Assembly: GCA_947447955.1 (NCBI GenBank) | Contig: CANFLS010000001.1 | Location: 1-64,000 of the forward strand | Length of the DNA stretch: 64,000 nt | Direction: 5' to 3' | Source of the DNA: Flavobacteriales bacterium | GTDB lineage: Bacteria; Bacteroidota; Bacteroidia; NS11-12g; UBA955 | In this document: piece after piece, positions 41,708 through 57,940 of the stretch | Layout of the letters: every line of letters starts with the position of its first letter | How positions within the stretch are numbered: position 1 is the first letter of the stretch | Position numbers and translations under genes: made by a program | The notes under the pieces: model-generated | Databases searched by the model: none | The model's input: only the letters and a program-made list of their open reading frames with translations | Told to the model about the DNA's origin: nothing

Positions 41708-43099
41708 ATGATTTTGGTATTCACTCACAAAGTTTCACATGCACTTCAATATGTTTTGGAAGAAATATTTTCAAGGCATTTTCACGTGAAATTCGAAATC
41801 ACCAACAATCAAGAACACTATCAATCTGCCACAAACACTTTAAAAATAAAGTATACACCGCTAAATGACTCAGAATTAGAAGGTTTGTGGATTCCAAATT
41901 CAGAATTTCTAAACAGAAATTTAAATGAAATAAATGATGTAAATTTATTTTCAAAAATTAACTGGATACCTATGAAAAAAGTTGAAATCATCGATTCAAC
42001 TTTCATTGAATTGCTCAATTTGCTGAATTTATCAAATGAAAATTTCAAATTGCACGAAAATTATTCACTTAGGCCGGTATATTTTCCAATGAAATCAGAA
42101 ATGGGATTTGATGTATTTTCACATGTTTTTGTGTTATTGTCGAACATTGAAGAAATTATCCTTTCAAAAGATTCGGAAAACTTGGACAAGTACAAAAGAA
42201 TCAAATCAAATAAACTTTCATTCGTGAAAAACCAAATGCATCTTTTGCCAATGGTGGAAATAGCAATTGAAAGACTCAAAGATTTTTTAAAACTTGAAGA
42301 TATAGAAAAAAGAGAATTTCAAATTATTCCAACTGCCGACATTGATCAATGTTTTAGATTTAAGGGAAAACCAATTTATAAAATTTTAGGGGGTGCCATT
42401 AAAAACCCAAAAACAATTGTATCGAGATTTTTGTCACTTTTTTCAAAAACAGATTCGTTTACCCCAAGCGAAACGGTTCAATCCATTTTATCACAAAATC
42501 CCAATTCCAAAATATTTTGGCTTTGCAATCGCAAACAAAGTAAATTAAACAAACAGGCAAAAAGAAGCAACGTCGAATTTCAAAATGAAATTCTCCAAAG
42601 TGTGAAATACTCCGAAATTGGCATTCACCCTTCTTACCAGTTCAGTAAGGAAATAGAAATTTACAGTGAAGAAAAGAATTGGTTAGCAAATATTTCTCAG
42701 CACAAAATATCAAATAGCCGACAACATTATATCCATTTAACCCTTCCAAAAACCTATCAAATTTTAGAACAAATGAATATTGAAAATGATTGGAGTATGG
42801 GATTTAATGACAACATTGGCTATAGAACCGGAACCAGTTTACCCTACTATTGGTTCGACATTTCTACAAACGAAAAAACAAATTTAATCATCAATCCTTT
42901 TGTTCTCATGGATGTGAGTTTTAAAAACTATTTAAAAATAAATTCATTTCAAGCCAATCAATTAGGAACATTATTTAAACAATCTATTAAACAATACAAA
43001 GGAAATTTTTGTTTCATTTTTCACAACGAATCAGCATCTGAAACCGACGGTTGGGAAGGATGGAAAAACACAATTATATCATGGGCATCACCTATTTAG
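41708..43099 (+). CDS. Polysaccharide-deacetylase-like protein with N-terminal DUF7033-like domain
   Basis: The protein has 463 residues from the ATG at 41708, chosen over an upstream ATG that would overlap gmd. The N-terminal about 130 residues ([21 protein letters not shown]) are of a Bacteroidota-specific type found before deacetylase domains. The rest has [52 protein letters not shown] and a C-terminal FHNES, matching the carbohydrate-esterase-4 layout with Asp/His metal residues in divergent form. Substrate unknown; surface-polysaccharide processing is plausible. It overlaps the next gene by 19 bases. Confidence 0.7.
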
Positions 43100-50059: not shown

Positions 50060-51808
50060 ATGAATACCTTAAAGAAAAATATCATTGTATTTTGTTTATC
50101 AATTTCATTGAGTTTTTCTTTATTGGCGCTAACCAATCCTGTTATCCTTCAAAGGGCTTGCCTCGACAAGGTTACGGGAGTTGTTACGCTTTACATAAAA
50201 CCAAGTTCAGACCCTTGTAATTCATTTAAATTTTACCGCATTTTTGGTCGCGATGATTCCTTCAATTTGTTTCAACAATTAGGTCAAACAAGCACACTTA
50301 ACACAAATACAATAAATGTATCGTTGCCAAACAAGAAAAAATGGCAATTGTATATTTCGTCGTTTTATTCTTGCAACGGAATTGACACTTTGAATTCAAA
50401 TAAAATTTGGATTGATGACGTTGCACCGTCGGCAATTGAGCCAGATAGTGTTTCTGTAAATATGCTCACTCAGTTGATTTTTGGGGGATGGACAACACCA
50501 AGTGATGCAGACATTATGGGTTACAGTTTATTCAAAGTTGATCCAGTAAGTGGAAGCAATTCTGTAATCGATGAGAAAAATGTTTTAACCTACACCTTTG
50601 TTACAACTACTTTTAATTCAACAACATCGGGAAACAAATTGGCCATAGCCGCTTTTGATAGCTGCCGAAACGGAGGTATCATCAGTGCTTATCATTCACC
50701 TATATTATTATCGGTTTCAACCCCAACAAATTACAGATGCCAAAAGAAAATCAACCTAAATTGGACACCTTACGTAGGATGGAATACAGATTCCAACTAT
50801 TTATTCATCTTTGACTTAACCTTGAATAAATGCATTCAATGTGTCCGCTTATCTGGATCAACAATCAATTATACCTATAGTTTACCTTATCTGAATACAA
50901 CATTTGCATTTATGGTTCGTTCAAAAAGAACAGGGAAAAACATTACATCTTCATCGAATATAGTAAGTAGCTATGTGCCTGATTTCCCTAAGCCAATTAC
51001 AAAAACCACCCTATCACAAGTAAGTGTTGAATTTCCCTCTCAGATACAAGCCATAGGAAATTGGGAAACTGGCGACAGTGCCACGTTATATGTTCGACAA
51101 CAAGGAGCAGGCATTTGGTCTAACATTATTTCTTACAATAAGGCACTCAACTCATTTACATACAACGATATAACCCATAATTCAGACTATACAATAGCCG
51201 AATTTTTATTGGTACGCTACAATTCATGTGGCAATGCCGCCGACAGTAGCGCTTTGCATAACAACATCCTTCTCACAGAAGGCGCAAACAAGAAAATCAA
51301 TTGGAATACATATAACGGTTGGACGAAAGAAGGCATTCCATACACTTACAATATTGAAAAATGGAACGGTTCTACATGGAATACCATTGGCAATACAACT
51401 GCTCAAACATTTCCCTTAAACGGCACTGGCTATGGAGTTACAAAATATAGGGTAACAGCAAAACCAAACAATCCATCGAAAACAGAATGGAGTCATTCCA
51501 ATGAAATCCAGGTAGATTTGGGGTACGATTCAAGCGCATACGACACCACATTAATTCCATCGGGATTCACTCCAGATGGAATCAATCCCATTTTCAAAAT
51601 GTCCAATCCCGCCATCTCTCCAGGCGAAGCCATCATGCAGATCTATAATCGCTGGGGTGAACTCATTTTCAAAGGAGATGCACTCACTGGATGGGATGGC
51701 AAATCGCAAGACCAACCTGTTCAAGAGGGATTATACATCTACATCATAGAAGCAAAATACAGAAATAAACGTGAAGTTTCACGTGGAACAATCAATTTAA
51801 TCCGATAA
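50060..51808 (+). CDS. Secreted protein with Fn3-like domains and type-B T9SS domain
   Basis: The protein has 582 residues; signal peptide ending about SLLALT. Several fibronectin-like beta modules (about 30-490) and a C-terminal type-B sorting domain (about 497-582: LIPSGFTPDGINPIF, IYNRWGELIFKG, WDGK, VQEGLYIYIIEA). Function unknown. Unlike the adhesin at 9515-14203 it has no PorP/SprF gene beside it. It starts directly after the M16 stop. A parS-like palindrome lies within the codons EVSRGT at its 3' end. Confidence 0.85.
   Translation: MNTLKKNIIVFCLSISLSFSLLALTNPVILQRACLDKVTGVVTLYIKPSSDPCNSFKFYRIFGRDDSFNLFQQLGQTSTLNTNTINVSLPNKKKWQLYISSFYSCNGIDTLNSNKIWIDDVAPSAIEPDSVSVNMLTQLIFGGWTTPSDADIMGYSLFKVDPVSGSNSVIDEKNVLTYTFVTTTFNSTTSGNKLAIAAFDSCRNGGIISAYHSPILLSVSTPTNYRCQKKINLNWTPYVGWNTDSNYLFIFDLTLNKCIQCVRLSGSTINYTYSLPYLNTTFAFMVRSKRTGKNITSSSNIVSSYVPDFPKPITKTTLSQVSVEFPSQIQAIGNWETGDSATLYVRQQGAGIWSNIISYNKALNSFTYNDITHNSDYTIAEFLLVRYNSCGNAADSSALHNNILLTEGANKKINWNTYNGWTKEGIPYTYNIEKWNGSTWNTIGNTTAQTFPLNGTGYGVTKYRVTAKPNNPSKTEWSHSNEIQVDLGYDSSAYDTTLIPSGFTPDGINPIFKMSNPAISPGEAIMQIYNRWGELIFKGDALTGWDGKSQDQPVQEGLYIYIIEAKYRNKREVSRGTINLIR
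51776..51789. promoter_or_regulatory. Probable parS site (GTTTCACGTGGAAC)
   Basis: 13 of 14 positions match the GTTTCACGTGAAAC core of the ParB-binding site. Inside the 3' end of a coding sequence. Confidence 0.75.
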
Positions 51809-51812
51809 TTCA

Positions 51813-52250
51813 ATGCCAGAAAACATACAATTTTTAGGGAAAAGCAAATTCTTAAACGGCAAAAACCGAAAAGATATTCGACAATTATTGAACGAAACAG
51901 CAAATAATGAGGGGTACGATATCGAAAATATCACCTATATATTTATGTCCGACGATGAATTGCTCGAGATAAATCAGCAACATTTACAGCATGACGATTA
52001 TACCGACATCATTACTTTTGATTTATCCGACATAGAAGCATCTGTAGATGGAGAGATATATGTATCCATTGACCGCATCAAAGAAAATGCAATCAAATAT
52101 AATTGCAGCAACGAACAAGAAATCATCAGGGTATTATCGCATGGCCTATTGCATCTGCTCGGATATAAAGACAAATCCGAAGTAGATATTCAGAAAATGA
52201 GAGAGAAAGAAGCCGAATGTTTGACCAGATATACCCTTATTTCACAATAA
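51813..52250 (+). CDS. ybeY: Endoribonuclease YbeY (16S rRNA maturation)
   Basis: The protein has 145 residues. The zinc motif is HGLLHLLGYKD: the first two His are present, while the third ligand (His in the usual HGxLHLxGYDH) reads Asp after Lys, as in many Bacteroidota. DYTDIITFDLSD and GEIYVSIDRIKENA are family segments. Lies 4 bp after the type-B cargo gene. Confidence 0.9.
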   Translation: MPENIQFLGKSKFLNGKNRKDIRQLLNETANNEGYDIENITYIFMSDDELLEINQQHLQHDDYTDIITFDLSDIEASVDGEIYVSIDRIKENAIKYNCSNEQEIIRVLSHGLLHLLGYKDKSEVDIQKMREKEAECLTRYTLISQ

Positions 52251-52295
52251 ACAAATGTGCATTTTTAGAACTTTTTTATCAGGCCTCTACCCCTT

Positions 52296-52303
52296 TAACT
52301 TTG
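52296..52303 (+). promoter_or_regulatory. -7 promoter box of mnmG (TAACTTTG)
   Basis: Perfect TAnnTTTG, 30 nt before the mnmG ATG. The parS palindrome lies between this box and the start codon, so ParB binding could affect expression (inference). Confidence 0.65.
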
Positions 52304-52316
52304 TAAAAACAATACC

Positions 52317-52330
52317 GTTTCACGTGAAAC
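52317..52330. promoter_or_regulatory. parS site (GTTTCACGTGAAAC)
   Basis: Perfect 14-bp palindrome identical to the ParB/Spo0J-binding core; with flanks it matches 15 of the 16 bases of the B. subtilis consensus. It lies in the mnmG leader, 3 bp before the ATG. Confidence 0.85.
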
Positions 52331-52333
52331 AAT

Positions 52334-54193
52334 ATGAAAAATAATCTATACGACGTCATAGTAGTAGGTGCCGGACATGCCGGATGTGAAGCAGCAAACG
52401 CAGCCGCATCTATGGGAAGTAAGGTTCTCCTTATTACCATGAATATGGAAACCATAGCAAAAATGAGCTGCAATCCCGCTATGGGAGGCGTAGCGAAAGG
52501 ACAAATTATCCGCGAAATTGATGCACTCGGAGGAATGTCGGGTATCATAACAGACAAAACAATGATCCAATTCCGCATGCTCAACCGCAGCAAAGGCATT
52601 GCCATGTGGAGCCCAAGGGCACAAAGTGACAGAATGCGCTTCTCAGAAGAATGGAGATTGGCCTTAGAAAGAAACTTAAATGTAGATTTCTTCCAAGATT
52701 CGGTTACTGAGATTACAACAGAAAACAATAAAGTAACCGGAGTAAAATGTGGAATGGGAATGACATTCCAATCCAAAACAGTTGTGCTAACAGCAGGAAC
52801 ATTTTTAAATGGAATCATTCATATAGGCAGAAAACAGTTTGGCGGTGGTAGAATGGCAGAGAAAAGTTCAACCGGAATAACAGCCCAATTAGAATCATTG
52901 GGACTCGTTTCTGGCAGAATGAAAACAGGTACTCCTCCAAGGGTAGATGGCAGATCGTTAGATTACAGCAAGATGGAAGAACAAGCTGGCGACGAAAATC
53001 CCTCAAAATTCTCTTACACCAATCAAACGCAATCGCTTGAACATCAACGTAGTTGTCACATAACCTATACAAACGAAAACGTACACAATATTCTTAGAGA
53101 AGGTTTCGAAGACAGCCCAATGTACAATGGAAGCATACAAGGATTGGGACCAAGATATTGTCCGAGTATAGAAGACAAAATAAATAGATTTGCAGAAAGA
53201 GAGCGACATCAAATATTTGTAGAACCAGAAGGTTGGAATACCATTGAAATATATGTAAACGGATTCAGTACATCCCTACCCGATGAAATACAAGTAAGGG
53301 CAATGAGAGAAATACCTGGATTCGAAAATGTAAAAATATTTAGACCCGGCTATGCAATTGAATACGACTTTTTCCAACCAACACAATTAAAAGATACACT
53401 TGAAACAAAAGCGATACATAATTTATTTTTTGCAGGACAAATAAATGGTACTACCGGATATGAAGAAGCAGCAGCCCAGGGTTTGATGGCAGGTATCAAC
53501 GCACATGCACATGCACAAGAAAAAGAAACCTTAGTACTTGGTAGAAACGAAGCATATATAGGAGTACTCATTGACGACCTTATAAATAAGGGAACAGAAG
53601 AACCATATAGAATGTTCACTTCAAGAGCAGAATACCGAATCTCTTTACGACAAGACAATGCAGATTTAAGGCTGACGCCAATAGGACATAAAATTGGTTT
53701 GGCTTCAAACGGAAGAATGGAGAGATTAGAAGTTGTAAATAGAGAAGCAAACGAAATAACAGAAATACTTCAAAAGGAAAGCATCGGATTGGAAGATGGC
53801 AAAATATATCTCCCACAGCTTACATCAGAAATAAACGAAAAAACTAAAGCCCGTAAAATATTATTGCGACCTGAAATAAATTTATCAGATATACAAAAAA
53901 TACCGCAATTCAATATCATACAATCTTTTGACACTGAAGCAATTCAAAGAGCAGAAATTAATATTAAGTATTCAACGTATATAGAAAGAGAGCAAGAACA
54001 AGCAGATAAACTCATTCGGTTAGAAAATATTAAAATACCGGAAAACTTCGATTATTCTAAATTACAATCAATGAGTATGGAAGCTCGAGAAAAACTAAAG
54101 AAAATACAACCAAGCACAATTGCTCAAGCAAAACGCATTAGTGGTGTTTCTCCTTCTGATATTTCTGTACTTTTAATTCATTTTGGAAGATGA
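52334..54193 (+). CDS. mnmG: tRNA uridine-5-carboxymethylaminomethyl modification enzyme MnmG
   Basis: With MnmE it places a carboxymethylaminomethyl group at U34 of several tRNAs. The protein has 619 residues (E. coli 629). The FAD loop VVGAGHAGCEAANAAA is near the N-terminus; SCNPAMGGVAKG, TGTPPRVDG and LFFAGQINGTTGYEEAAAQG are signature blocks. The C-terminal helical domain is complete. MnmE is not in the window. Often sited close to oriC and parAB in bacteria; here it has parS in its leader. Stop overlaps the next ATG (ATGA). Confidence 0.95.
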   Translation: MKNNLYDVIVVGAGHAGCEAANAAASMGSKVLLITMNMETIAKMSCNPAMGGVAKGQIIREIDALGGMSGIITDKTMIQFRMLNRSKGIAMWSPRAQSDRMRFSEEWRLALERNLNVDFFQDSVTEITTENNKVTGVKCGMGMTFQSKTVVLTAGTFLNGIIHIGRKQFGGGRMAEKSSTGITAQLESLGLVSGRMKTGTPPRVDGRSLDYSKMEEQAGDENPSKFSYTNQTQSLEHQRSCHITYTNENVHNILREGFEDSPMYNGSIQGLGPRYCPSIEDKINRFAERERHQIFVEPEGWNTIEIYVNGFSTSLPDEIQVRAMREIPGFENVKIFRPGYAIEYDFFQPTQLKDTLETKAIHNLFFAGQINGTTGYEEAAAQGLMAGINAHAHAQEKETLVLGRNEAYIGVLIDDLINKGTEEPYRMFTSRAEYRISLRQDNADLRLTPIGHKIGLASNGRMERLEVVNREANEITEILQKESIGLEDGKIYLPQLTSEINEKTKARKILLRPEINLSDIQKIPQFNIIQSFDTEAIQRAEINIKYSTYIEREQEQADKLIRLENIKIPENFDYSKLQSMSMEAREKLKKIQPSTIAQAKRISGVSPSDISVLLIHFGR

Positions 54194-55608
54194 TCAAGTC
54201 TATTAGTCCAATATTATTTATTGCCCTTCTTTTTACAAGATGTGCAAATCCTGTTGGTCCAACCGGAGGAGACAAGGATGAAAAATCTCCTGTGATAACA
54301 AAAGTAAAAATTGAATCAAAAAAACAAGAAAAAAACATAAGTATCATTTTTGACGAAAATATTAATACCAAGGGAGAAATATCAATTAGTCCTTACACCC
54401 ACAAACAAAATATATCCCTCAATAAATATAGAAACACATTAAATTTTACTGTACCACAAAATACCAATTCCATTAGTCTAAATGATGTAATTACAGATGT
54501 AAATGAAAATAACGCAGGAAAATATCCTTTTATCATTTTAGGTACAGATAGTTTAAATTATATCATTAAATACGAAAGTCCTAATCCTACAAAAGAGAAA
54601 ATTAAAGGTTATTTTAAAGTAGATAGTTTTTACTATCCCGGTGACAATAGCCAAAAGGGAATCATCAAGTTTGGAGGATTAAAAAACATAGATAATCAGA
54701 TCACTTTGTTCAATGATATCAATAATAATAATCAATACGATAACGAAGAAGGTTATTATATCCAACAAATAAAATCGAATCAATTATATAAAGATTCAGT
54801 TAAAGATACCACTTCAATAATCTTATATCCCCCATTGAAAAGGGAGATAAAAAGAGGTTTAAGTAAACAAGATTCAGTTGCTCTATATATAGGTATACCA
54901 AAATCAATTATTGATACAATATTTACCCAAGAAAAAATATATATCGTGAATCACATTGATACCACAGTAATCAATATTCAAGATACATCCGACATTGAAA
55001 AACTATTTCAAGGATCCAATCTCAACTTTAAAATAAATCAAAGTAAAATTGATTTACCAATAACTGGAGATATAAAATACAAAATTGCAATCATCGAAAA
55101 GGATACTCTAATCCAAAAACAGAAAACCATTGGATATATTCTAAATAAACGAAGACACAGTAAATATCATTTCTATACCAAAGAAGAGATACAACAATAT
55201 AAATCATACAATAAATTACAATATCCAAGTATATACAGTAATCCAAGCGAAAGAATCATAGAAATATCCATTCAAAAATATATCAATTCTAAAAAAGACA
55301 CCTTTTATAAGAATATAAAATATAAAATTGGACAGTTAAATATCAAATTAAAAGATAAAAATACAGGCAACTTAAAGATTAAACTAATCAATAGTAATAA
55401 TTACGTTCAAGTATTCAGTATACACGAGGACATTAATATCCTTTTAGACCAAGATACCTACCATTATTATATATGGGAAGACAGCAACAACAACAACGAA
55501 ATGGATATATACAATGAAAATGATGCATTATATGCAGAAAAAGTAAAGGTATATAATAAGGAAACTGCTGTAAATGGTAAATTAGAGAACACAATCACTG
55601 TGGAATAA
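54190..55608 (+). CDS. Ig-like (SbsA/Big_5-type) lipoprotein
   Basis: The protein has 472 residues with a lipoprotein signal: FIALLFTRCANPVGPTGG, with Cys about 18 and the CxNP-x-GPTGG motif that marks a common Bacteroidota lipoprotein family. An Ig-like domain (about 35-115) follows and then a long Asn/Lys/Ile-rich beta region. Composition is strikingly A-rich compared with neighbours. Function unknown. It is translationally coupled to mnmG. Confidence 0.78.
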   Translation: MIKSISPILFIALLFTRCANPVGPTGGDKDEKSPVITKVKIESKKQEKNISIIFDENINTKGEISISPYTHKQNISLNKYRNTLNFTVPQNTNSISLNDVITDVNENNAGKYPFIILGTDSLNYIIKYESPNPTKEKIKGYFKVDSFYYPGDNSQKGIIKFGGLKNIDNQITLFNDINNNNQYDNEEGYYIQQIKSNQLYKDSVKDTTSIILYPPLKREIKRGLSKQDSVALYIGIPKSIIDTIFTQEKIYIVNHIDTTVINIQDTSDIEKLFQGSNLNFKINQSKIDLPITGDIKYKIAIIEKDTLIQKQKTIGYILNKRRHSKYHFYTKEEIQQYKSYNKLQYPSIYSNPSERIIEISIQKYINSKKDTFYKNIKYKIGQLNIKLKDKNTGNLKIKLINSNNYVQVFSIHEDINILLDQDTYHYYIWEDSNNNNEMDIYNENDALYAEKVKVYNKETAVNGKLENTITVE

Positions 55609-55997
55609 CAGTGAAATACTTAAATTAAGTTTAGGATAATATTAATTTAACTTAGATAATACCAAAACGGAAAAACACCAAATTCAATCGTGTGAATTTA
55701 ATCAATCCTATAGACCACATTGTCTATAGTCAATGTAAAAAAGTATCACTAATAAACAGCTATAAAAAATTGAGAAAAATATAAAAATAAAATCATAAAA
55801 TATTATATAATAATCATTTAAAAAGTAAAAAACACACTAAAAAAATCAACACAAAAGAATTATCCCGATATCCACACAGCTATAATATATAATACATAAT
55901 ACTCTTTAAATGAAAGGTATTAATTAATACTTTGGGCTGGGGAAAACCAATAATAGAAAAATTTACAATCATCAAAAGTGAATATTAGATTTGTACC
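55609..55997. other. 389-bp very AT-rich gap with palindromes (possible origin region)
   Basis: No gene is seen. The gap contains an 8-bp inverted repeat (CTATAGAC-N6-GTCTATAG, 55708-55729), a 14-bp palindrome (GTATTAATTAATAC, 55917-55930) and one near-match to the DnaA box TTATCCACA (ATATCCACA, 55868-55876), plus long A/T runs. The pheS promoter is at its right end. It could be part of a replication origin, but a single near-box is weak evidence. Confidence 0.4.
55986..55993 (+). promoter_or_regulatory. -7 promoter box of pheS (TAGATTTG)
   Basis: Perfect TAnnTTTG ending 4 nt before the ATG; a TTTA at 55962 may be the -33 element. Confidence 0.75.
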
Positions 55998-57008
55998 ATG
56001 ATTCAGAATATTGAAACAATAACCCAAGAAGTAAATGATTTTATAATCGAAAATGCAGAGGCATTGGAATTGTATCGTTTGAAATTCTTAAGTCGTAAGG
56101 GAAGTATTTCTGAATTGTTCGAAGTGTTTAAAGAATTGCCTGGGATTGAAAAACGCGACATTGGCAAACCTTTGAATATTTTAAAAAGTTTGGCTGAAGA
56201 AAAATTCAACTCTCACAAAGAGCAATTTGAAAATACTGCGGTTGATCTTTCGGCAATGGTTGACACTACCCTTCCCGTTTATCAAAATGAGTTGGGAAGT
56301 TTTCATCCATTAAAAATTGTAGAAAATGAATTGGTAGATATTTTCAATTCTTTGGGATTCGATTTAAGCGAAGGTCCAGAAATTGAAGACGACCACCATA
56401 ATTTTGGAGCATTGAATTTTGCAGAAGATCATCCTGCGAGAGATATGCAAGATACTTTCTTCATTGGAGAAAATGTTTTGAGAACGCATACCAGCAGTGT
56501 TCAAATTAGAGAAATGGAAAGACACGAACCTCCATTTCGTTTGATTATGCCAGGTAGGGTTTATAGAAACGAAGCTGTGAGTTCAAGAAGCAATTGTTTT
56601 TTCCATCAAATTGAAGGATTGTATGTAGACAAAGGCGTAACCTTTGCCGACTTAAAACAGACCTTGTACTATTTTGTACAACAATTTTTTGGTGAGGGAA
56701 CCAAAATAAGATTTAGATCAAGTTATTTCCCATTTACAGAACCAAGTGCCGAAATGGATATTTGGGCTGGTACTGAAACTGAAGAAAATAAAAGACTTAC
56801 AAAAGGCACTGGATGGCTTGAAGTTTTAGGTTGTGGTATGGTTCACCCAAATGTACTTAAAGCGTGTAATATCGATCCTGAAGTATATACAGGCTTCGCT
56901 TTTGGTATGGGTATGGATAGAATTACCATGTTGAAATACGGAATAAACGATATTCGAGATCTGTTTGTGAATGATACGAGGATGTTATCGCAGTTTAAGG
57001 GGGTGTAA
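55998..57008 (+). CDS. pheS: Phenylalanyl-tRNA synthetase alpha subunit
   Basis: The protein has 336 residues: an N-terminal coiled coil (about 1-90) and class II catalytic core. Motif 2 is in RVYRNEAVSSRSNCFFHQIEG, and motif 3 is GFAFGMGMDRITMLKYG. HPLKIVENELVDIF and FDLSEGPEIEDDHHNF are typical. It pairs with PheT, not in the window. Confidence 0.95.
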   Translation: MIQNIETITQEVNDFIIENAEALELYRLKFLSRKGSISELFEVFKELPGIEKRDIGKPLNILKSLAEEKFNSHKEQFENTAVDLSAMVDTTLPVYQNELGSFHPLKIVENELVDIFNSLGFDLSEGPEIEDDHHNFGALNFAEDHPARDMQDTFFIGENVLRTHTSSVQIREMERHEPPFRLIMPGRVYRNEAVSSRSNCFFHQIEGLYVDKGVTFADLKQTLYYFVQQFFGEGTKIRFRSSYFPFTEPSAEMDIWAGTETEENKRLTKGTGWLEVLGCGMVHPNVLKACNIDPEVYTGFAFGMGMDRITMLKYGINDIRDLFVNDTRMLSQFKGV

Positions 57009-57175: not shown

Positions 57176-57940
57176 ATGATATATTTTGCAAGTGATTTTC
57201 ATTTAGGGATGCCTCAAGGGGAGGTTTCTAAATTGAGAGAAAAAAAGATTTGTGATTGGTTAGAATCAATTTCATCTGATGCGAGTGAAATTTATTTGCT
57301 GGGCGATTTATTCGATTTTTGGTTTGAATACAAAACTGTAGTTCCACGTGGTTATGTCCGCTTTTTAGGAAAATTAGCAGAACTCACAGATAAGGGAATT
57401 AAAATTTTTGTTTGCGTTGGAAATCACGATTTGTGGATGCGTGAATATTTAGAAGAAGAGTGTGGTGTTAAAATTTTTAGAGATCCTTTAATTAAAAAAT
57501 TCGGCACTAAGAATTTTTATATCCATCATGGCGATGGATTGGGTCCTGGTGATAACGGTTACAAATTTCTCAAAAAGATTTTCCTCTCTCCCATCAATCA
57601 ATTTTTATTTGCAAAGTTGCATCCGAATTTTGGTTTTAAGTTGGCAACTGCTTTTAGTAAAAAAAGCAGATTGGCTCAACCAGAGGCTGAAAGTAGCTAT
57701 CAGGGCGACAATAATGAGTACCTAACACAGCATTGCTTAGAAATATTAAAATCTCAGGCCGTTGATTTTTTTATTTTTGGCCATAGACATTTGAAAATCA
57801 ATGTAGAATTAGAAAATTCTAATCCACTCACTCAAAACGATTCTCATGAAAAATCACGGTATATGAACCTCGGAGAGTGGTTTTCGGGTGGAGGGTATGC
57901 AAAATTTGACGGAGACCAATTATTTTTTTACGATTTGTAA
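57176..57940 (+). CDS. lpxH: UDP-2,3-diacylglucosamine diphosphatase (LpxH-like)
   Basis: The metallophosphoesterase produces lipid X in lipid A synthesis. The protein has 254 residues. Metal motifs in order: SDFHLG (Asp7, His9), LLGDLFDFWFEY, VGNHDLW, HHGDGLGPGD and FGHRHLK. The GDLFDFW block and overall length match LpxH rather than LpxI. Some Bacteroidota have more than one such phosphoesterase, so an alternative substrate is possible. Confidence 0.85.
   Translation: MIYFASDFHLGMPQGEVSKLREKKICDWLESISSDASEIYLLGDLFDFWFEYKTVVPRGYVRFLGKLAELTDKGIKIFVCVGNHDLWMREYLEEECGVKIFRDPLIKKFGTKNFYIHHGDGLGPGDNGYKFLKKIFLSPINQFLFAKLHPNFGFKLATAFSKKSRLAQPEAESSYQGDNNEYLTQHCLEILKSQAVDFFIFGHRHLKINVELENSNPLTQNDSHEKSRYMNLGEWFSGGGYAKFDGDQLFFYDL

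Follow-up and report, generated by a model that had tools for sequence, protein, structure and literature searches.

Two probable parS sites beside mnmG near a predicted replication origin of a Flavobacteriales chromosome

Two palindromes on either side of ybeY, one of them in the leader of mnmG, are, with a probability of about 0.95, the chromosome's parS sites and part of an ordinary ParABS system. They lie in a window of 64,000 nucleotides (the whole stretch of DNA analysed here) and we refer to them as parS1 and parS2. The sites themselves are ordinary; very probably being real parS, they draw interest through their deep anchoring to mnmG, the distance of parAB from them and the missing SMC.

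Results

Two near-perfect palindromes flank ybeY

The features of the window to which the text refers are the following.

41779-41792, no strand: weak candidate TTTTCACGTGAAAT, a palindrome with 2 mismatches, at chance level
50060-51808, + strand: gene of a CHU_C / type IX secretion system (T9SS) type B sorting-domain protein, which contains parS2
51369-51382, no strand: apparent decayed ancestral parS2, GTTCTACATGGAAT, in GSTWNT codons, aligned with G006 and G017
51776-51789, no strand: parS2, GTTTCACGTGGAAC, 1 mismatch to GTTTCACGTGAAAC, at the 3′ end of the type IX secretion gene
51813-52250, + strand: ybeY (TIGR00043, 1.5e-25), which separates parS1 and parS2
52296-52303, + strand: TAACTTTG, a TAnnTTTG-like -7 box read from the sequence, upstream of parS1
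52317-52330, no strand: parS1, GTTTCACGTGAAAC, a perfect palindrome in the mnmG leader, ending 3 bp before the ATG
52334-54193, + strand: mnmG (gidA; TIGR00136, 838 bits)
54190-55608, + strand: predicted lipoprotein gene, no family match
55609-55997, no strand: candidate oriC, an AT-rich intergenic block with one DnaA-box-like ATATCCACA and the GC-skew minimum inside
55998-57008, + strand: pheS, at the far edge of the candidate oriC
from 57341: weak candidate GTTCCACGTGGTTA, a half-site at chance level

The first-pass annotation had reported a perfect palindrome and a copy that differs at one position, and had held that such a pair is not expected by chance. Both strings lie where it placed them, with starts 541 bp apart, and with 0 and 1 mismatch they match the palindromic consensus (14-16 bp) of chromosomal parS. 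A scan of the genome's own assembly (2,808,179 bases in 70 contigs, 94% complete) returned parS1 and parS2 as the only matches to GTTTCACGTGAAAC at ≤1 mismatch, which excludes an even density of the motif around the genome. Under a dinucleotide model, chance would yield 0.028 exact GTTYCACGTGRAAC sites per 2.81 Mb and about 1.5e-7 pairs of such sites within 541 bp, so the pair is indeed unexpected. Two weaker candidates from the same annotation, at 41780-41791 and 57341-57351, are real strings, but as parS they are indistinguishable from chance, since this genome holds 11 sites with two mismatches to GTTTCACGTGAAAC.

The two sites differ in their setting. As the annotation had proposed, parS1 stands between a -7 box and the mnmG start codon: it begins 13 bp after the element at 52296-52303, which we take to be a -7 box from the Bacteroidota promoter consensus, and the ATG is at 52334. 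A candidate RNA hairpin in the mnmG leader was rejected, being no stronger than those of shuffled sequences (z 0.31). parS2 is not intergenic; it occupies part of the last 33 bp of the 50060-51808 gene, in the codons V-S-R-G-T, just before ybeY. The order of the neighbourhood is M16-peptidase-like genes, the T9SS type B (CHU_C) gene, ybeY, mnmG, the predicted lipoprotein gene, an AT-rich gap and pheS. The lipoprotein-like gene at 54190-55608, although without a family match, is kept between mnmG and the candidate origin/pheS in the relatives inspected. Farther along the same contig (G000:C1, about 88000-116000) there is a stretch with a GC content of 0.24-0.34, a very strong positive GC skew and ORFs nearly all on one strand; this low-GC stretch is possibly an island.

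The sites lie close to a predicted origin

Clustering of parS near the GC-skew minimum, anticipated by the first-pass annotation, is seen both on the genome's own contig and in the relative G039, with the origin placed by GC skew only. Over the whole 241 kb contig the cumulative skew reaches its minimum at 55,904, inside the AT-rich gap before pheS (GC about 0.21); this point is 3.6 kb from where mnmG starts and ~4 kb from the parS sites. The genome of G039 is a single 2.41 Mb contig, for which skew was taken from 46 stretches of 20 kb; it changes sign at the same locus, with a local minimum at 2,107,904, 3.7 kb from the mnmG start, and parS at 2,103,356 and 2,104,182. Of 22 genomes, 19 have an AT-rich block at +3.2 to +3.6 kb relative to mnmG. 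A local skew minimum at +3.6 to +3.9 kb was found in only 8 of 22 when 20 kb windows were used, a count that is expected noise for windows this short, but not proof.

Support from DnaA boxes at the candidate oriC is only suggestive: the window contains no canonical box (TTWTNCACA) near it, only ATATCCACA at +3.53 kb. In this genome dnaA is located elsewhere, not at the predicted origin. Additional parS or parS-like sites adjoin the AT-rich candidate origin in several relatives, at +3228 in G017 and about +3.3 kb from mnmG in G002, G019 and G001.

The leader site is conserved within and beyond the phylum

The exact pattern occurs in 41 of 57 genomes (this one and its relatives), mostly once or twice per genome, and the reversed pattern in 1. 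All 71 exact sites on contigs that carry mnmG are ≤4 kb from that gene; 68 of them fall within 1.5 kb upstream, and 33 of those in the leader. In most relatives parS stands 0-27 bp before mnmG, and in G002, G028, G030, G036 and G038, which have no exact copy there, a site with one mismatch occupies the same place. Where ybeY reaches mnmG, in G002 and G044, the leader site encodes the end of YbeY. Both parS copies of a genome can share an unusual centre: GTTTCACATGAAAC is present twice in G002 and GTTTCACGGGAAAC twice in G028, where the second copy is inside mnmG. These identical variant pairs look like concerted change of the pair, and the ParB recognition helices of G002 and G028 have no telling difference to account for GTTTCACATGAAAC and GTTTCACGGGAAAC.

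At the level of the phylum, 93 of 392 genomes, spread over 19 families and 49 of 179 genera, match a strict pattern made up of parS, a gap of 0-30 bp, a start codon and the MnmG motif, and the reversed control pattern matches in 0; the 93 are a lower bound, and many phylum genomes are without a strict leader match. Named genomes supply at least 118 parS-mnmG loci, including Bartonella, Rhizobium, Shinella, Desulfuromonadales, Chlorobiaceae and KSB1. Among the matches listed (80 titled loci, with only those that have sufficient downstream DNA counted), parA/parB lie downstream of mnmG in 12/12 alpha/beta-proteobacterial loci versus 0/21 Bacteroidota loci. The link between parS and mnmG thus exceeds the phylum, and only some groups have parAB next to it. 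Alphaproteobacteria, Chlorobi and Bacteroidota repeatedly show another parS where mnmG ends, about 1.9 kb past the leader site; mnmG is then flanked by parS.

The second site probably turns over within a coding gene

In relatives the second copy lies about 0.5-0.95 kb upstream, within the coding gene. In 20 genomes from two families this upstream site falls within the CHU_C gene, always in the same frame, at the motif [S/F]-T-W-N with the codons ACG-TGG-AAC. Relatives carry GTTCCACGTGGAAC or GTTTCACGTGGAAC at the position that matches 51369-51382; the clade of the present genome reads TCT-ACA-TGG-AAT there, its amino acids unchanged and its parS lost by synonymous changes. The replacement site at 51776, 407 bp downstream of this relic, is shared by only two close relatives, G007 and G009. 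The simplest reading of these alignments would be turnover, with selection favouring a second parS close to the first; the leader site is then apparently the old, fixed one, and the second is apparently kept within about 1 kb of it, its exact place turning over.

One ParB with a parS-type recognition helix, and no SMC match

The genome encodes one ParB, of 294 aa, with N-terminal, HTH and C-terminal dimerisation domains, so the absence of parB is excluded. It adjoins ParA; the two genes form a single operon (G000 contig C19, locus L014) with parA at 2684-1887 and parB at 1890-1006, overlapping. ParB is present in 43/43 good-quality genomes of the relatives set. Aligned by eye to Caulobacter ParB in the numbering of PMC7383237, the recognition region VGKDRTTVNNYLRLLRLP...SMGHAR keeps R173 and G201, the pair that is constant in ParB and altered in Noc (PMC7383237). 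The Caulobacter HTH residues Q162, G170, K171, R173, N178, G201 and R204 are all retained, and the position of S172, which contacts DNA in Caulobacter ParB, is D in this protein. A ParB with recognition residues of the parS type is therefore found in the same genome as the sites.

Proximity of parAB to parS and oriC is usual, though not obligatory. The operon is not close to them in this group: it is on a separate contig from the sites in the present genome, about 1.05 Mb away (circular) in G039 and 1.26 Mb away along the contig in G023. In G039 parAB (G039:C1:747363-748217) is close to the skew maximum, that is, near the predicted terminus.

A main role of parS in other species is the loading of SMC, and SMC-ScpAB is a partner in many species, not in all. 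Searches with TIGR02168 (E≤1e-20) and PF06470 found SMC in 0 of 14 genomes (this one and 13 relatives), the models being positive in 11/14 and 10/14 control genomes, with the hinge model missing Caulobacter. Because SMC was not found in these 14 genomes, its loading at parS is unlikely and probably absent here. One SMC-like match, on contig C50, is a low-complexity coiled coil and not SMC. The control Bacteroides ihuae is likewise without a match to TIGR02168 or PF06470.

Discussion

Other origins of the palindromes have to be weighed against parS. Chance is an extremely improbable one: CACGTG cores do occur elsewhere in an AT-rich genome such as this (6 in the 64-kb window), but the expectation is only 0.028 exact sites per genome, and two families as well as the wider phylum share the placement, a conservation that refutes it. 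The leader palindrome might instead act mainly as an operator or 5′-UTR hairpin for mnmG, used by ParB or another protein, with segregation secondary or absent. Its place after the -7-like box and before the ATG suits such a function, as does its retention 0-27 bp from the start in most relatives and in the 93 of 392 phylum genomes. However, no mnmG operator is expected 0.5-0.95 kb upstream in a coding gene, where the second copy lies, and the leader site of G002 and G044 is not free leader but the end of the YbeY reading frame. The sequence, moreover, is the ParB consensus, and the two sites are the only ones in the genome. We therefore consider an operator or hairpin unlikely as the main function.

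It could also be argued that the leader site alone is a genuine parS, and that the second has been conserved as a by-product of the protein motif [S/F]TWN, given that the same codons hold it in 20 genomes. The choice of codons speaks against this: ACG, which makes up 11.6% of Thr codons, is found there together with AAC, as compared with 3 of 23 other T-W-N motifs in the fetched ORFs, although this comparison, from a small, related sample with sites picked by sequence, is supporting and not independent proof. In addition, the clade of the present genome keeps the motif, loses the site and gains one 407 bp away in other codons, and G020 has three sites in the CHU_C gene. These points make a by-product of the motif very unlikely.

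With both palindromes taken as parS, we infer that ParB, encoded elsewhere on the chromosome, would bind each of them as a dimer through its HTH domain. ParB-CTP would load at parS and slide over the neighbouring ybeY-mnmG DNA, and ParA would carry the origin region, coated with ParB, toward the daughter cells. With the predicted oriC about 4 kb away, the sites would be the first to be copied and segregated. ParB might possibly affect mnmG, as also raised by the first-pass annotation; the geometry is consistent with this. A more speculative scenario, which we regard as a long shot, is that a very old leader parS, locked in position, is common to Bacteroidota, Chlorobi and Proteobacteria; in Bacteroidota parAB would have left the origin and SMC would be missing, and parS would have stayed because ParB loading in the leader also tunes mnmG, and with it tRNA modification, with origin copy number.

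A parS marks a chromosome's origin and segregation centre. The order parS, mnmG, lipoprotein gene, AT-rich gap, pheS offers a simple landmark for the Bacteroidota oriC, even in fragmented assemblies. A parS locked to the mnmG start, with parAB distant and SMC undetected, is a clean setting in which to ask what holds a centromere in place, and turnover of the site in a coding gene would directly record the selection for a second parS. We found no description of parS in Bacteroidota in the open-access literature searched, which excluded Livny et al. 2007, reportedly the main parS survey.

Among known systems, the sites resemble the parS of Bacillus subtilis Spo0J, Caulobacter and Pseudomonas in their consensus GTTYCACGTGRAAC, in being few and near oriC, and in going with a ParB of the R173/G201 type. 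In P. aeruginosa, ParB binds perfect palindromes best and pairs with a single mismatch slightly less (PMC4368675). Unlike in the Bacillus subtilis, Caulobacter and Pseudomonas systems, parAB is distant from the sites and SMC was not found (in this genome and 13 relatives). The Noc-binding sites (NBS, ATTTCCCGGGAAAT) are a similar palindrome bound by a ParB paralogue. However, NBS have A1 and C6 bases, whereas the sites here begin with G and are centred on CACGTG, and the sole ParB has R173/G201 in contrast to the Q173/R201 of Noc, so a Noc/NBS system does not fit. In arrangement the sites resemble the alphaproteobacterial mnmG-(rsmG)-parA-parB origin region (Bartonella, Rhizobium, Shinella), which carries parS in the leader of mnmG and frequently another where the gene ends, about 1.9 kb downstream. 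The difference lies in the surrounding genes: among the matches listed, parA/parB follow about 2.5-3.4 kb downstream in the 12/12 proteobacterial loci as against 0/21 in Bacteroidota, and ybeY upstream is a Bacteroidota trait (40 of 41).
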